DNA from: Psychroflexus salarius | GTDB taxonomy: Bacteria > Bacteroidota > Bacteroidia > Flavobacteriales > Flavobacteriaceae | Direction: 5' to 3' | Assembly (NCBI RefSeq): GCF_900129035.1 | Contig: NZ_FQTW01000001.1 | Span: 496,001 to 560,000, forward strand | DNA: 64,000 nt | Part shown: positions 48,091 through 61,790 of the stretch, one piece after another | Layout: every line of letters begins with the position of its first letter | How positions within the stretch are numbered: the stretch's first letter is position 1 | Program-made: the position numbers and the translations under genes | The notes under the pieces: model-generated | Seen by the model: the letters and a program-made list of their open reading frames with translations, nothing else | Told to the model about the DNA's origin: nothing | Database searches by the model: none

Positions 48091-48567
48091 ATGAGAGAAA
48101 AAACAATAGACTATATATTAAGGTCAACCTGGATTGCAGTTGCCAAAATGTATAATGAAGAAGCCGCAAAGAAATCAAGTACAATGGCAACTGGATTTGC
48201 TTTATTGAGTATAGATCCAGAAAATGGGACACCTTCAACTGCATTAGGCCCAAAAATGGGTGTAGAATCAACAAGTTTATCTCGTACCTTAAAAACTATG
48301 GAAGAAAAAAATCTGATAAGACGAGAAAAAAATCCGAAAGATGGTAGAAGTGTATTAATTCATTTAACCGATTTCGGAGTTGATATGAGAAATTTTTCAA
48401 AAGAAGTTGTATTAGGTTTTGATCAAGCTGTAAAAGAAAATATCAGTGAATCTGAATTGAAAACTTTTATAAAAGTTGCTGAAAAAATTCAAGATATGAT
48501 TACTGAAAAAACGATATATAAAAACAAAGTTTACAAAAGCATCAATACGTATGAAAAGAAGAATTAA
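48091..48567 (+). CDS. MarR-family transcriptional regulator
   Basis: A 158-residue winged-helix regulator. The core is at about residues 35-115: TALGPKMGVESTSLSRTLKTMEEKNLIRREKNPKDGRSVLIHLTDFG. DxRS in KDGRS is the wing motif of the family. The ends are helical and form the dimer interface. Its last 17 bases overlap the start of the fadN-type gene, so it is the first gene of the fatty-acid operon and probably regulates it, perhaps sensing acyl-CoA. This role is inferred from context; B. subtilis uses a TetR-type FadR for the same operon. Confidence 0.9.
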   Translation: MREKTIDYILRSTWIAVAKMYNEEAAKKSSTMATGFALLSIDPENGTPSTALGPKMGVESTSLSRTLKTMEEKNLIRREKNPKDGRSVLIHLTDFGVDMRNFSKEVVLGFDQAVKENISESELKTFIKVAEKIQDMITEKTIYKNKVYKSINTYEKKN

Positions 48568-50956
48568 AAAAGTAGCCGTTATTGGTTCAGGTATTATGGG
48601 AAGTGGCATTGCCTGCCATTTTGCGAATATCGGAGTAGAAGTTTTACTACTCGATATAGTACCTAGAGAACTTAATGAAAAAGAAAATCAACATGGAAAA
48701 ACTTTAAAGGACAAATCTGTTAGAAATCGTATTGTTAACCATGCATTACAGAACTCTTTAAAGTCAAATCCGTCTCCTATTTACCATAAAGACTTTGCAA
48801 AACGCATTGAAACAGGAAATCTTGAAGATGACATTGCTAAAGTTAAAAATGCAGATTGGATTATTGAAGTCGTTGTTGAACGATTAGATATCAAGCAGCA
48901 AGTATTTGAAAATCTAGAGAAATACAGAACACCAGGAACTTTAATTTCTTCAAATACGTCGGGAATTCCTATAAAATTCATGAATGAAGGCAGATCTGAA
49001 GATTTCAAAAAACACTTCTGCGGAACCCATTTCTTTAACCCACCACGTTACCTTAAGTTACTAGAAATTATTCCAGGACCTGACACTTCAACCGAAGTTT
49101 TAGATTTCCTTAATGAATATGGCGAAAAATACTTAGGCAAAACTACCGTTGTAGCAAAAGATACGCCAGCATTCATTGGTAATAGAATAGGTATTTTCAG
49201 CATTATGAGTCTATTCCATATGGTCAAAGATATGGACATGACAATCGAAGAGGTTGATAAGCTAACAGGACCAGTAATAGGTAGACCAAAATCAGCAACT
49301 TTTAGAACAGTTGATGTTGTAGGTTTAGATACTTTGGTACATGTGGCTAATGGACTTTATGAAAATGTCCCAAAAGACGAGCAACACGACCTGTTTAAAC
49401 TACCTGAGTTCATCAGCCACATGATGGAAAATAAATGGTTGGGCAGTAAAACTGGACAAGGATTTTATAAAAAAATAAAACATGACGATGGTTCTAGCGA
49501 AATTAAATCGCTTGATTTAAACACGCTTGAATACCGTTCAAAAGAGCGTGCTAAATTTGACACGCTTGACAAAACGAAATCGGTAGACGAAGTTGCTAAT
49601 CGATTTCCAATTTTAATTGAAGGAAAAGATAAAGCAGGAGAATTTTACCGTAGAAACTTCGCCGCTTTATTTGCTTACGTTCAACATAGAATTCCCGAAA
49701 TCACAGATGCGCTTTATAAAATTGACGACGCTATGAAAGCTGGTTTTGGCTGGCAACATGGGCCATTTCAAATTTGGGATGCCATTGGATTAGAAAAAGG
49801 TATTCAATTAATGAAAGACGAAGGCTATGAAATTGCTGATTGGGTCAAAAAGCTTTCTGAGTCTGATCATAAATCTTTTTATCATGTAAAATCTGGTAAA
49901 ACATATTTCTATGATATCGATAAAAAGTCACATGAAAAAATTCCTGGTCAAGATGCCTTTATTATACTTGATAACATTAGAGATAGCCAAGAAGTGTGGA
50001 GCAATAAAGATTTAGTTGCTACTGACCTTGGTGACGGCATTTTAAATATTGAATTCAGAAGTAAAATGAATTCGATTGGTGGCGATGTCCTTAATGGAAT
50101 CAACACAGCCATGGATCTAGCTGAAAAAGAATATAATGGTGTTGTAATTTCTAATACTGGAGATAACTTTTCAGTTGGTGCTAACATTGGTATGATTTTC
50201 ATGTTTGCAGTCGAGCAGGAATATGAAGAATTGAACGGCGCAATTAAATATTTCCAAGATACCATGATGCGTATGCGCTATTCTGCTATTCCAACGGTAG
50301 CTGCTCCTCATCAAATGGCACTTGGAGGTGGTTGCGAACTCTCCATGCATGCCGATAAAGTCGTTGCCCACGCTGAAACTTATATTGGTTTAGTTGAATT
50401 TGGTGTCGGTGTAATTCCTGGTGGTGGCGGTTCTAAAGAAATGACTAGACGAGCAGCTATGACCTTCCAAAAAGATGATGTTGAATTAAATCGTCTCCGA
50501 GAAAACTTTTTAGCCATAGGTATGGCAAAAGTAGCCAAATCTGCACATGAAGCTTATGATTTAAATATTCTAGAAAGCGGAAAAGACATTGTTGTTGTAA
50601 GCCGAGACCGACAATTAGCAATCGCTAAAGAGCAAGCCAAATTAATGGCTCAAAACGGTTATAGCCAGCCAGTTAAAACGAATGATATTAAAGTATTGGG
50701 GAGACAAGCTTTAGGCGCATTTTTAGTAGGAACTGACCAGATGAAAGCTGGAAAATACATTAGTGAACATGACCAGAAAATTGCTAACAAATTAGCTTAC
50801 GTGATGTCTGGAGGCGATTTATCTGAAGCCAATTATGTATCAGAACAATACCTCTTGGATCTAGAGCGTGAAGCCTTTTTATCCTTATGTGGCGAACGAA
50901 AAACTTTAGAACGTTTACAGCATATGATTAAGAAAGGTAAGCCATTAAGAAATTAA
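48551..50956 (+). CDS. fadN: 3-hydroxyacyl-CoA dehydrogenase / enoyl-CoA hydratase, FadN type
   Basis: A two-function beta-oxidation enzyme of 801 residues. The N-terminal Rossmann motif GSGIMGSG (12-19) and the ICGTHFFNPPRYLKLLEIIPG region mark the 3-hydroxyacyl-CoA dehydrogenase. The C-terminal enoyl-CoA hydratase part starts near 490, with MALGGGCELSMHAD and GVIPGGGGSKEMTRR. This order, dehydrogenase first, is that of Bacillus FadN (YusL) and opposite to E. coli FadB. The start overlaps marR. It is followed by a four-helix-bundle gene and then fadA. Confidence 0.92.
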   Translation: MKRRIKKVAVIGSGIMGSGIACHFANIGVEVLLLDIVPRELNEKENQHGKTLKDKSVRNRIVNHALQNSLKSNPSPIYHKDFAKRIETGNLEDDIAKVKNADWIIEVVVERLDIKQQVFENLEKYRTPGTLISSNTSGIPIKFMNEGRSEDFKKHFCGTHFFNPPRYLKLLEIIPGPDTSTEVLDFLNEYGEKYLGKTTVVAKDTPAFIGNRIGIFSIMSLFHMVKDMDMTIEEVDKLTGPVIGRPKSATFRTVDVVGLDTLVHVANGLYENVPKDEQHDLFKLPEFISHMMENKWLGSKTGQGFYKKIKHDDGSSEIKSLDLNTLEYRSKERAKFDTLDKTKSVDEVANRFPILIEGKDKAGEFYRRNFAALFAYVQHRIPEITDALYKIDDAMKAGFGWQHGPFQIWDAIGLEKGIQLMKDEGYEIADWVKKLSESDHKSFYHVKSGKTYFYDIDKKSHEKIPGQDAFIILDNIRDSQEVWSNKDLVATDLGDGILNIEFRSKMNSIGGDVLNGINTAMDLAEKEYNGVVISNTGDNFSVGANIGMIFMFAVEQEYEELNGAIKYFQDTMMRMRYSAIPTVAAPHQMALGGGCELSMHADKVVAHAETYIGLVEFGVGVIPGGGGSKEMTRRAAMTFQKDDVELNRLRENFLAIGMAKVAKSAHEAYDLNILESGKDIVVVSRDRQLAIAKEQAKLMAQNGYSQPVKTNDIKVLGRQALGAFLVGTDQMKAGKYISEHDQKIANKLAYVMSGGDLSEANYVSEQYLLDLEREAFLSLCGERKTLERLQHMIKKGKPLRN

Positions 50957-51011
50957 AGTATAGAATTAAGACGATAGAAATTAGATATTAGACTAAAATC
51001 GATCTAGAATT
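50957..51011. repeat. Degenerate TTAGA-type repeats upstream of the four-helix gene
   Basis: The 55-base gap is built from repeated TAGAATTA, TAGAAATTAGA and TTAGAC units. Read as the complement, it consists of TCTAA-type units like those downstream of the four-helix gene at 51369-51409. The arms are therefore roughly inverted. Confidence 0.55.
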
Positions 51012-51368
51012 ATGCATAACTATAAAGAATTAAAAATATGGAAAAAGTCAATGGATTTAGTTGAAAATATATTTCAACTCATAGCGAATTTTCCTGATTC
51101 TGAAAAGTATGGTTTAATCTATCAAATTAAGAGAAGTGCTATTTCTGTTCCTTCTAACATTGCAGAAGGTGCTGGCAGAAACAGTAATAAAGATTTCAGC
51201 AGATTCTTATCAATTTCTAAAGGATCTTTAAATGAATTAAATACTCAGCTTATCATAAGTTATCGTCTAAACTTTATAGACAGTAAAGTGTTAGACCAGT
51301 TAGACGATACCATTAATGAAATACATAAAATGATTTATAAATTTAATCAAAGCTTAGATTTTAAGTAA
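51012..51368 (+). CDS. Four-helix-bundle protein (S23 / rRNA-intervening-sequence family)
   Basis: A 118-residue protein with the family pattern: YKELKIWKKSMDLVENIF at the N-terminus, the core FPDSEKYGLIYQIKRSAISVPSNIAEGAGR, and the helix with FSRFLSISKGSLNELNTQL. The family (first found in ribosomal intervening sequences) is widespread in Bacteroidota and is related to the Avd proteins of diversity-generating retroelements. There is no reverse transcriptase here. It sits inside the fad operon between fadN and fadA, flanked by degenerate inverted repeats, which suggests later insertion. The function is unknown; RNA or protein binding is possible. Confidence 0.9.
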   Translation: MHNYKELKIWKKSMDLVENIFQLIANFPDSEKYGLIYQIKRSAISVPSNIAEGAGRNSNKDFSRFLSISKGSLNELNTQLIISYRLNFIDSKVLDQLDDTINEIHKMIYKFNQSLDFK

Positions 51369-51409
51369 GTAAAATCTTAAATCTAAGTACTAAAATCTAA
51401 ATATCAGAT
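51369..51409. repeat. Degenerate AAATCTAA-type repeats downstream of the four-helix gene
   Basis: The 41-base gap repeats AAAATCT, AAATCTAA, AAAATCTAAAT and ATCAGAT. In the opposite orientation the upstream gap has the same kind of units, so the gene is bracketed by inverted, degenerate repeats. Confidence 0.5.
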
Positions 51410-52597
51410 ATGAAAACAGCATATATAGTTAAAGGATATAGAACTGCAGTCGGAAAGGCACCAAAAGGTGTGTTTCGTTTTAAAAGACCGGATGATTTGG
51501 CTGCTGAGACAATTGACTACATGATGAAACAATTACCTGAGTTTGACAAATCAAGAATTGATGATGTTATTGTTGGTAATGCTATGCCAGAAGCTGAACA
51601 AGGTTTAAATATGGGACGATTAGTTTCGCTTATGGGGTTAAAATCTGAAGAAGTTCCCGGTGTAACAGTTAACAGGTATTGTGCCTCAGGAATCGAAACC
51701 ATCGCCATGGCTTCTGCAAAAATTCAAAGCGGAATGGCCGATTGTATCATTGCAGGTGGAGCCGAAAGTATGAGCTACATTCCAATGGGTGGTTACAAAC
51801 CAGTCCCAAATTATAAAACAGCAAAAGCTGGAAATGAAAGTTATTATTGGGGAATGGGTTTGACTGCAGAAGCTGTGGCAGAAAAGTATAACGTAAGCAA
51901 AGAAGACCAAAATGCGTTTGCTTTTCAATCTCATCAAAAGGCGATAAAAGCTCAACAAGAAAATAGATTTCAAGACCAAATTGTACCTATAGAAGTTGAA
52001 GATATTTTCGTTGATGCAAAAGGTAAAAAGCAATCTAAAACCTATACGGTAGATCAAGATCAGGGACCACGCGCAGACACGTCTGAAGCAGTCTTGAACA
52101 AACTAAGACCGGTCTTTGCAGATGGCGGCAGTGTAACTGCTGGTAACTCTTCACAAATGAGTGATGGTGCAGCCTTTGTAATGGTCATGAGCGAAGAAAT
52201 GGTCAAAGAATTGAATCTTGAACCTATTGCGAGATTAGTATCTTACGCAACAGTTGGCGTAGAACCAAGAATTATGGGGATTGGTCCTGTTAAAGCAATT
52301 CCTAAAGCGTTAAAGCAAGCGGACTTAAAGTTGAAGGATATGGATTTGATTGAACTGAATGAAGCCTTTGCTTCTCAATCACTTGCAGTGGCAAGAGAAT
52401 TAGACATTAATCAAGACATCTTAAATGTAAATGGTGGTGCTATAGCTTTAGGCCATCCATTAGGTTGCACTGGGGCAAAGCTATCTGTCCAGATTTTTGA
52501 TGAGATGAAGAAAAGAAATTTAAAGAATAAATATTCTATGGTCACCATGTGTGTTGGTACTGGACAAGGTGCAGCTGGAATATATGAAGTATACTAA
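51410..52597 (+). CDS. fadA: Acetyl-CoA C-acyltransferase (3-ketoacyl-CoA thiolase)
   Basis: The last enzyme of the beta-oxidation cycle, cutting 3-ketoacyl-CoA into acetyl-CoA and a shorter acyl-CoA. The 395-residue thiolase has an active-site cysteine in [15 protein letters not shown] at about residue 90. The second half has [17 protein letters not shown] with the catalytic His at about 349, and [13 protein letters not shown] with the second Cys near 381. It ends five bases before the acyl-CoA dehydrogenase gene, so both are in one operon with fadN. Confidence 0.95.
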
Positions 52598-52602
52598 AAA
52601 CA

Positions 52603-54417
52603 ATGAAAATGGAAACAAAAGAGAAAAAGGATAACATGATTCGCGGTGGACAATTTATCGTAACTGAAACGAAGGCAGAGGACATTTTTACGCCTGAAGA
52701 TTTTTCTGATGAACAGAAAATGATGCGAGACTCTGTTAAGGAGTTTGTTGATAGAGAAATTTGGCCTAAAAAAGAAGAGTTCGAAAAGAAAAATTACGAC
52801 TTAACTGAAGAAGTGATGCGTAAAGCTGGAGAACTCGGTTTCTTAGGTGTTGCTGTACCAGAAGAATACGGCGGACTAGGAATGGATTTTGTCTCAACTA
52901 TGTTAGTTTGTGATTATATTTCAGGAGCAACCGGTTCATTTAGTACAGCATTTGGTGCTCACACTGGTATTGGCACCTTGCCAATTACATTATATGGTAC
53001 CGAAGAACAAAAGAAAAAATATATTCCTAAATTGGCCACTGGCGAATGGTTTGGCGCTTATTGCTTAACTGAACCTGGCGCTGGTTCTGATGCCAATTCA
53101 GGAAAAACAAAAGCGGTCTTATCTGAAGACGGTACCCATTACAAAATCACAGGCCAAAAAATGTGGATCTCTAATGCTGGTTTCTGCGATTTATTTATCG
53201 TTTTCGCACGTATTGAAGATGATAAAAACATTACTGGGTTCATAGTTGAAAAAGATCTAGAAAATGGAATATCAATGGGTGATGAAGAGAAAAAACTAGG
53301 AATTCACTCTTCTTCTACCCGTCAGGTTTTCTTTAATGAGACAAAAGTTCCTGTTGAAAACATCTTAGGCGAGCGCAACGGTGGATTCAAAATCGCGATG
53401 AATGCACTTAATGTGGGGAGAATCAAACTAGCTGCTGCTTGCTTAGATGCTCAAAGACGTACAATTTCATCTGCAGTTCAATATGCCAATGATCGCGTTC
53501 AATTTAATACGCCTATTTCAAAGTTTGGAGCCATACGTTCAAAATTAGCAGAAATGGCAACAGCTGCTTATGCCGGTGAAGCGGCAAGTTATAGAGCAGC
53601 TAAAAATATTGAAGACCGTATCAATGCAAGAAAAGAACAAGGTAACTCACACCAAGAAGCAGAATTGAAAGGCGTTGAAGAATTTGCTATTGAGTGCTCC
53701 ATTTTAAAAGTAGCTGTTTCAGAAGATATTCAAAATTGCTCTGACGAAGGAATTCAAATTTATGGTGGAATGGGCTTCTCTGCAGATACGCCAATGGAAT
53801 CAGCTTGGAGAGATGCTAGAATTGCAAGAATTTATGAAGGAACCAACGAAATAAACCGAATGCTTTCGGTAGGAATGTTAGTTAAAAAAGCAATGAAAGG
53901 TCATGTAGATTTTATGGGACCAGCGCAAGCTGTTGCAGATGAATTAACAGGTATTCCTTCATTTGATACACCTGATTTTTCTGAATTACTTTCAGAAGAG
54001 AAAGACATGATTAAAAAACTTAAAAAAGTCTTTTTAATGGTTGCAGGAGCAGCAGCACAGAAATTTGGAACCGAATTAGAAGAACACCAGCAACTACTTT
54101 TAGCTTCAGCCGATATCTTAATTGAAATTTATATGGCCGAATCTGCAATCCTCAGAGCTGAAAAGAGTGCAAAAATTAAAGGTAAAGAATCTCAAAGTGT
54201 ACAAATTGCAATGGCTAAACTCAAACTTTACAATGCCGTAGAGAAAATCAACAAAAAGGCTAAGGAAGGTATCATTTCATTTGCTGAAGGCGATGAACAA
54301 AAAATGATGCTTATGGGATTAAAACGATTTACCAAATATTATAACTATCCTAATATTGTTGAGTTAAGAAATACAATTGCAGACCGAGTCGTAGAAGATA
54401 ATAGCTATAAGTTTTGA
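52603..54417 (+). CDS. fadE: Acyl-CoA dehydrogenase, FadE type
   Basis: An FAD-dependent enzyme that makes the first double bond in an acyl-CoA. The 604-residue protein has the usual acyl-CoA dehydrogenase core to about residue 430, with EYGGLGMDFVSTML, YCLTEPGAGSDANSGKT, KMWISNAGF and the helix ending MFSADTPME-like GGMGFSADTPMESAWRD. ARIYEGTNEINR lies at about 408-419, near the expected catalytic base. The extra C-terminal domain of about 170 residues (about 430-604) matches long bacterial forms such as Bacillus FadE (YusJ). It is the last gene of the operon and is followed by a strong terminator. Confidence 0.93.
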   Translation: MKMETKEKKDNMIRGGQFIVTETKAEDIFTPEDFSDEQKMMRDSVKEFVDREIWPKKEEFEKKNYDLTEEVMRKAGELGFLGVAVPEEYGGLGMDFVSTMLVCDYISGATGSFSTAFGAHTGIGTLPITLYGTEEQKKKYIPKLATGEWFGAYCLTEPGAGSDANSGKTKAVLSEDGTHYKITGQKMWISNAGFCDLFIVFARIEDDKNITGFIVEKDLENGISMGDEEKKLGIHSSSTRQVFFNETKVPVENILGERNGGFKIAMNALNVGRIKLAAACLDAQRRTISSAVQYANDRVQFNTPISKFGAIRSKLAEMATAAYAGEAASYRAAKNIEDRINARKEQGNSHQEAELKGVEEFAIECSILKVAVSEDIQNCSDEGIQIYGGMGFSADTPMESAWRDARIARIYEGTNEINRMLSVGMLVKKAMKGHVDFMGPAQAVADELTGIPSFDTPDFSELLSEEKDMIKKLKKVFLMVAGAAAQKFGTELEEHQQLLLASADILIEIYMAESAILRAEKSAKIKGKESQSVQIAMAKLKLYNAVEKINKKAKEGIISFAEGDEQKMMLMGLKRFTKYYNYPNIVELRNTIADRVVEDNSYKF

Positions 54418-61654: not shown

Positions 61655-61685
61655 CTTGCTAAAATTAAATTTGATTGTATATTTG
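61655..61685 (+). promoter_or_regulatory. Promoter of the SRP RNA gene
   Basis: A TTG at 61656-61658 and TATATTTG at 61678-61685 are spaced by 19 bases, matching the Bacteroidota consensus TTG/N19/TAnnTTTG. The RNA starts six bases after the -7 box. This is the best promoter in the window and calibrates the start-point distance used elsewhere. Confidence 0.75.
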
Positions 61686-61690
61686 CAGTC

Positions 61691-61790
61691 GGCAAGTCCT
61701 ACACAACCAGCTCCTGTCGAATCCTCCAGGGCGGGAACGCAGCAAAGGTAGATGGTCGTAGCGGTGTGATGTAGGTCGCTTGCCTTTTTT
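61691..61790 (+). ncRNA. ffs: Small signal recognition particle RNA (SRP, 4.5S-type)
   Basis: The RNA component of the signal recognition particle, which with Ffh directs membrane and secreted proteins to the membrane. The ends pair, GGCAAG with CTTGCC and CCTACA with TGTAGG. The conserved apical stem has a GGAA tetraloop in GCGGGAACGC, followed by AGCAAAGGTAGA, matching bacterial small SRP RNA. The mature RNA probably ends near 61784, with the T run to 61790 forming the terminator. It has its own promoter and is not inside an operon. Confidence 0.93.

Follow-up and report, generated by a model that had tools for sequence, protein, structure and literature searches.

Introduction

In Coxiella, an intervening sequence (IVS) in the 23S rRNA gene has complementary borders, carries an S23 open reading frame (ORF) and is excised by RNase III; its distribution is reported to be patchy, its ORF to decay, and S23-type proteins to have no known function (PMC4990558). 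Here we analyse a 64,000-nucleotide stretch of the Psychroflexus salarius genome (the window), in which an S23 gene framed by two repeat arms (50957-51409) lies not in a 23S rRNA gene but between fadN and fadA of a fad operon. Like the rRNA IVS, this operon element combines an S23 ORF with matched arms and is patchily distributed. Unlike it, the operon element sits between protein genes, has tandem heptamer arms with a locus-specific unit, occurs in several copies per genome and also exists in a version with direct arms.

Other described systems share single traits with this element. The proteins of PDB entries 2GSC and 2RLD, with five chains each, belong to the same sequence family (PF05635/TIGR02436), whose description covers the protein only. 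PF05635 is reported to resemble Avd structurally (PMC10053308). The Avd of diversity-generating retroelements shows a distant sequence relation to S23, whereas this genome has no reverse transcriptase (RT) match. For the arms, MacGregor (2015) described intergenic tandem TAACTGA heptamers and noted further heptamers in some Bacteroidetes gaps whose counterparts in close relatives are shorter and free of repeats; the paper follows one unit, and its main text contains neither 'S23' nor 'four helix' (PMC4679880). The S23 arms are likewise intergenic tandem heptamers, and some of those gaps may hold the same kind of element; TAACTGA itself was not encountered in the flanks of the window copy, which are of TTAGA/TCTAA type. 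The element also resembles miniature inverted-repeat transposable elements (MITEs) and repetitive extragenic palindromic (REP) elements in being small, often palindromic and intercistronic, but its copies lack a shared terminal sequence and carry a conserved ORF of their own. Comparable heptamer repeats are the short tandemly repeated repetitive sequences of cyanobacteria. In the open-access literature that we searched, no description of repeats flanking S23 genes came to light; one may exist in older papers or in papers behind a paywall. Matched arms tied to PF05635 proteins provide a concrete handle on what these proteins may act on, and the operon elements link the family to rRNA intervening sequences; both the proteins and the intervening sequences thereby become open to tests in ordinary operons, from which an element can be removed while the ribosome stays intact.

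Matched repeat arms frame S23 genes

We compared 85 loci, five from this genome and 80 from public genomes, the latter being the best 80 among 568 confirmed relatives, a sample that leans to close relatives. Among 97 S23 gene rows, 82 were usable and 15 were dropped for too short an ORF or flank (L005 gave no row); S23 start positions are approximate, neighbouring genes were chosen by a simple ORF rule, and near-identical orthologues in the comparisons are not independent. When the left flank is reverse-complemented and aligned to the right flank across these 82 loci, cognate pairs score 32.7 on average and non-cognate pairs 14.9. The cognate complementarity sum is 2683, compared with 1236 (sd 51) after permutation and 1511 in the highest of 10,000 permutations, and 60 of the 82 loci lie within the top 5% for inverted complementarity. 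The predicted RNA duplexes behave alike (cognate -36.7 vs -18.7 kcal/mol, z -22.5), while control genes in those loci (n=41) reach only 16.1 vs 15.2 (z 2.2). A flank complementarity score of at least 30 is attained by 44/82 S23 loci and by 0/41 control genes. Direct left-right similarity is also raised in the same set, with a sum of 1718 against a permuted 1086 (sd 36).

The arms are periodic. Self-match at lags 7 and 14 amounts to 0.43-0.46 beside S23 and 0.30-0.32 in control intergenic regions, and this heptamer periodicity fades about 150-200 nt away from the gene. The unit changes by locus and is common to both arms, TCTAAAA, CTCAATA, ACTCACA, CTAACGA, TCTTGTT and CTATACG being among those seen; judged by eye, G/U-A-G often recurs every seven bases along the RNA of the left arm. 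The sequence-only reading had staked its borders on the flanks of other family members, and once aligned these do carry such repeats. What they share is period-7 arms with one unit on both sides and not a TCTAA border: since units vary from locus to locus, we rejected a TCTAA-type border for all members. Nor do the copies share terminal inverted repeats of the kind by which insertion sequences or MITEs are recognised, the arm unit being locus-specific.

The pattern extends beyond a single clade or junction. Eighteen loci are labelled outside Bacteroidota, and the 13 with usable flanks score 45.4 vs 16.1 (0/20,000 permutations as high; 12/13 in the top 5%), with the proviso that labels of metagenome-assembled genomes can be wrong and that of L029 is doubtful. 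Arm co-variation also holds inside single junction classes, both for fadN-fadA (26 of 28 loci used, z 9.2, 0/20,000; five of the 26 pairs belong to the clade of the window copy, and L178 and L202 sit in a paa-type operon) and for fadA-acyl-CoA dehydrogenase (22 of 23 used, z 8.5, 0/20,000), and the same architecture is found again in operons with unrelated functions. Between codirectional neighbours, S23 runs along the operon in 77 cases and against it in none; in a second set, from the genus, the counts are 95 and 4. Control genes split 56:11 (Fisher p 1e-4 against 77:0 and 0.011 against 95:4).

Several loci show variations on this layout. In L015, L021, L031, L036, L039, L043, L049 and L055 an S23 gene stands on either side of the thiolase gene, mostly with different units. 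L119 and L141 carry very regular 8-nt arrays beside S23 (AACTGGTC type, about 15 copies in L119). Distant S23 relatives at paaA-paaB in L292 and L303 have apparent 6-nt inverted arms of TTGAAG type, and the period may thus differ from 7 in some cases; gap borders at paaA-paaB are off by up to about 57 nt, the query extending upstream of where the gene usually starts.

The S23 element between fadN and fadA

In the window all features of the operon lie on the forward (+) strand. The fadN-type gene (3-hydroxyacyl-CoA dehydrogenase/enoyl-CoA hydratase; 48551-50956) is the upstream host cistron and the fadA-type thiolase gene (51410-52597) the downstream one. Between them lie a left arm of degenerate 7-nt repeats of TTAGA type (50957-51011), the S23/four-helix-bundle gene for 118 amino acids (51012-51368) and a right arm of degenerate 7-nt repeats of TCTAA type (51369-51409), in type the reverse complement of the left arm; lag-7 self-match supports both arms. 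Coordinates and family match thus agree with the earlier proposal that an S23-type gene separates fadN from fadA on one strand, and the two gaps measure exactly the 55 and 41 nt it gave. The contrast that it drew with the rest of the operon holds as well, as the MarR gene (48091-48567) overlaps fadN by 17 nt and the acyl-CoA dehydrogenase gene (52603-54417) follows fadA after 5 nt. This last junction is the operon's other S23 site in relatives. At gathering thresholds, Rfam gives no match at the element.

The description of these flanks as consisting almost entirely of TCTAA/TTAGA units was overstated. Their 96 nt hold just four exact units, two TTAGA on the left and two TCTAA on the right, a number reached by 8% of dinucleotide shuffles of the flanks, while only 0.14% of the 96-nt stretches in the 64 kb hold as many. 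The 7-nt period is the stronger regularity: lag-7 self-match is 0.48 in the left arm (dinucleotide-shuffle p 0.022, top 0.58% of the window) and 0.59 in the right arm (p 0.002, top 0.03%). The longest ungapped inverted arms span 28 nt at 71% match, the arm pair ranks 0.30 against non-cognate pairs, and the arm duplex of -10.6 kcal/mol gives a letter-shuffle p of 0.114; the fold of the whole element as RNA is unremarkable (z -0.99). In four orthologues at the same junction (L116, L117, L118 and L216) arm pairing beats letter shuffles at p <= 0.01; in the comparison with non-cognate arms, L116 and L117 alone are distinct, at ranks of 0.03-0.04, with L118 and L216 at 0.21-0.22. Arms like the window's left arm occur in orthologues L089, L090, L097 and L101. 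By the shuffle test, the proposed inverted arrangement of the repeats thus shows in the pairing of these four orthologues and not in that of the window copy itself, which, on comparison of the sequences, we read as a worn instance of a real inverted-arm pattern.

The S23 protein and its relatives in the genus

The ORF matches PF05635 at E=1e-40 (138.7 bits, curated cut-off 33.8) and TIGR02436 at E=2.5e-38 (130.6 bits, cut-off 24) in profile searches; the Avd profiles PF22296 (E=2e-4) and NF033474 (E=5e-6) match it weakly, both under their curated cut-offs. Ratios of nonsynonymous to synonymous divergence (dN/dS) are 0.07-0.18 in six orthologue pairs free of L216 and 0.15-0.47 in the four pairs with it, dS being close to saturation in several of the ten. 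These codon comparisons indicate that purifying selection is acting on orthologues of the window gene, and hence that the protein matters to the element or to the host.

S23 is the element's sole ORF. We found no nuclease domain in the element, only PF05635 and a sub-cut-off bAvd match, and zero matches in this genome to the RT family PF00078 or to the transposase family PF01797 (Y1_Tnp), other transposase families not having been searched. The term 'homing-like' used in the sequence-only reading is accordingly unsupported. The proposal of a mobile unit with its own borders fares better: the element behaves as a bordered unit, and its distribution suggests, as we infer, that it is mobile.

PF05635 matches occur in 116/148 sampled Bacteroidota genomes and in 26/27 genomes of the genus, with at least 12 in the richest, many of them fragmentary, among the matches listed. 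RT matches are absent from 11/27 genus genomes (this one and 10/26 others), including G004, G005 and G016, each with 11-12 PF05635 matches among those listed. Genomes free of RT thus keep many PF05635 genes, so RT is not needed for their upkeep, and a present dependence on RT across the genus was rejected on the same 11/27 count. RT matches number 15 in G010 and 13 in G025, and 0-2 in other members.

Presence, possible loss and lineage at operon junctions

Of 59 genomes that have a fadA match, 30 yielded loci for the fadN-fadA comparison. In the genus 23 junctions are readable, and nine contain a PF05635 gene, eight close and one distant (G014); we considered the latter as 'bAvd-like' and rejected this because it scores to PF05635. 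Conservation of the S23 gene at this place, which would have spoken against the proposed insertion, is thus absent from the majority of readable junctions. Among the junctions without S23, 11 hold a GC-rich palindrome and three are otherwise occupied (43 nt, 27 nt and an extra ORF). The loci from six further genera comprise two with S23, one 4-nt gap, one 63-nt gap and two with a repeat hairpin without the gene (L111, L115). S23 follows fadA in at least 10 of the 30 loci, and L098 has this copy plus a distant S23 before fadA.

The GC-rich palindrome (by eye in L087, L088, L092-L096, L099, L105, L107 and L108) may be an alternative intercistronic hairpin. Its commonest form has one match each in 10/27 genomes, 8 at the fad junction; with one match per genome in 10/27 at <=2 mismatches, it was rejected as a dispersed REP.

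At nrdB-nrdA, 25 loci of one genus (L244-L268) show S23 with CTATGGT-type arms in seven, neither in 12, CTATGGT-type repeats without S23 in five, one of them weak, and one unreadable junction; junction states here, at arginase-DHS and for the GC-rich palindrome were judged by eye. The best pair is L244 and L245, whose NrdA fragment (214 residues) is 100% identical: the gap is 763 nt with S23 in L245 and 80 nt in L244, with both ends matching the ends of the L245 insert region. Their alignment can be read as a deletion between repeats.

Whether the arms follow the S23 lineage or the site was assessed in the genus set, 110 distinct ORFs around the stronger of the PF05635 matches listed; 89 entered this comparison and 90 that of direct and inverted arms. 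The mean arm score at the same site is 41.5 for close S23 (97 pairs) and 16.8 for far S23 (100), and at different sites 20.1 (48 pairs) and 15.1 (3454), such that close S23 at different sites exceeds far S23 at the same site (p=0.017), with some different-site assignments resting on short ORFs (L143, L190, L192). At >=70% S23 identity, 4/4 different-site pairs share arms, three of them from the trio L142, L143 and L146, which carries an alike TAAGCC-type unit at three sites. By these scores, the arms appear to be tied somewhat more closely to the lineage of S23 than to its site, and some lineages occupy several sites. Three S23 sequence lineages, one very distant, are found at fadN-fadA, which implies at least two separate arrivals; some of the forks separating two of them lack good support, in a tree with few columns and several unsure forks.

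Discussion

The element's architecture, spread, operon orientation, patchy presence, partial lineage tracking and S23-less arm remnants are directly visible in the loci compared. Together they are probably those of a dispersed intercistronic element, an S23 ORF framed by arms of mostly 7-nt repeats with a locus-specific unit that both arms share. Since an IVS-like layout is found here in protein operons, we suppose that the element works as intervening sequences do, while standing outside the rRNA class; by this analogy its best reading would be an operon-resident cousin of the S23-bearing 23S rRNA IVS, tolerated between cistrons. As a plausible course of events, ORF and arms would have come together into the fadN-fadA gap and then been inherited by part of the genus. 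Inverted arms would fold in the transcript as a stem, as those of the rRNA IVS do, for RNase III to cut, and the host cistrons would tolerate the element. Through slippage or recombination, the repeats could allow the element to disappear, down to a short remnant. In the least supported step, a pentamer of S23 might act on the RNA or DNA of the arms.

Several observations weigh against this dispersed-element reading. The window copy's own arms show no significant inverted pairing in either the shuffle or the non-cognate test. Among the 90 genus pairs, direct arms score 32.2 vs 15.2 and inverted arms 23.4 vs 14.3; direct arms being as strong as inverted ones, a hairpin cannot be the general rule. 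The S23 tree groups most copies by site, as inheritance in place would, and only 25% of the 48 different-site related pairs share arms (score >=25), their excess over same-site pairs with unrelated S23 being modest (p 0.017). Reading junctions by eye, we found no fresh insertion or target-site duplication. Strict heptamer arrays flank just two of the five S23 loci in this genome, the window, L003 and L004 falling below the threshold: six arrays occur in 13 kb of L002-L005 (two in L002 and two in L005, beside S23, and two in L004), and the two alike arrays of L004 (3048-3289) lie about 1.2 kb from S23, not adjoining it. Finally, as S23-less repeats exist, the gene might be a later arrival in arrays that were already there. 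In favour of the reading, on the other hand, the strict scan of the window and of 400 kb sampled from this genome, the L003 locus included, gave no array at all, and arrays do flank the S23 genes of L002 and L005.

The alternative that survives best concerns the co-variation of the arms, which could arise by mutation and not by selection if template switching between inverted arms corrected one from the other. Quasipalindrome correction is a known process, and a unit that is locus-specific yet matched across arms is what it would leave; however, the arms of L141, a locus of the direct kind, are each homogeneous in slightly different units, so arms can homogenise separately, and we hold this explanation to be possible but not likely.

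It is rather doubtful that the arrays precede the gene, with slippage making unstable heptamer arrays between operon genes in which S23 settles or shelters. The two arms would then share their unit as the halves of a single array that the gene had divided. S23-less repeats, seen by eye at nrdB-nrdA in L244, L246, L263, L264 and weakly L266, and at arginase-DHS in L272 and L274-L276, would fit such an order, as would the many direct-arm loci in the genus and the distance of the L004 arrays from S23. Yet splitting a simple array yields direct arms, whereas most of the 82 loci (60) stand in the top 5% for inverted complementarity. No strict array appears in the window and the 400-kb sample, and one S23 lineage carries an alike unit to three sites (L142, L143, L146).

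The stem between fadN and fadA could instead be useful to the host, selected for mRNA stability, with S23 arms as one way of providing it and the protein as a passenger or autoregulator. This idea draws on the GC-rich palindrome in 11 of the 14 readable genus junctions without S23 (by eye), on the commonest palindrome being present once per genome in 10/27, 8 at the fad junction, and on the gene-less repeat hairpins of L111 and L115; against it stand fadN-fadA gaps of 4, 27 and 43 nt, the direct-arm loci and the occurrence of the architecture in operons of unrelated function, which make it unlikely. Spread in the manner of a retroelement, with S23 as an Avd relative moved by RT in trans, is highly improbable despite the sub-cut-off Avd matches (PF22296, NF033474) and the resemblance of PF05635 to Avd reported in PMC10053308, given the RT-free genomes (11/27, this one included), which bear on present need and not on past spread.

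A broader form of the dispersed-element reading can be offered tentatively, as a speculation with a limited chance of being right. S23 intervening sequences might form a large unrecognised class in operon transcripts across Bacteroidota and several further phyla, with tandem-heptamer arms whose unit is reinvented by lineage and whose two sides change together; the pentameric S23 ring might recognise the regular spacing, such as that of G/U-A-G in the left RNA arm, and not any fixed sequence, and might protect, process or spread the element, and the rRNA IVS would be the small part that landed in rRNA.

Elsewhere in the window, the Bacteroidales small signal recognition particle RNA at 61683-61789 is the only Rfam match at gathering score.
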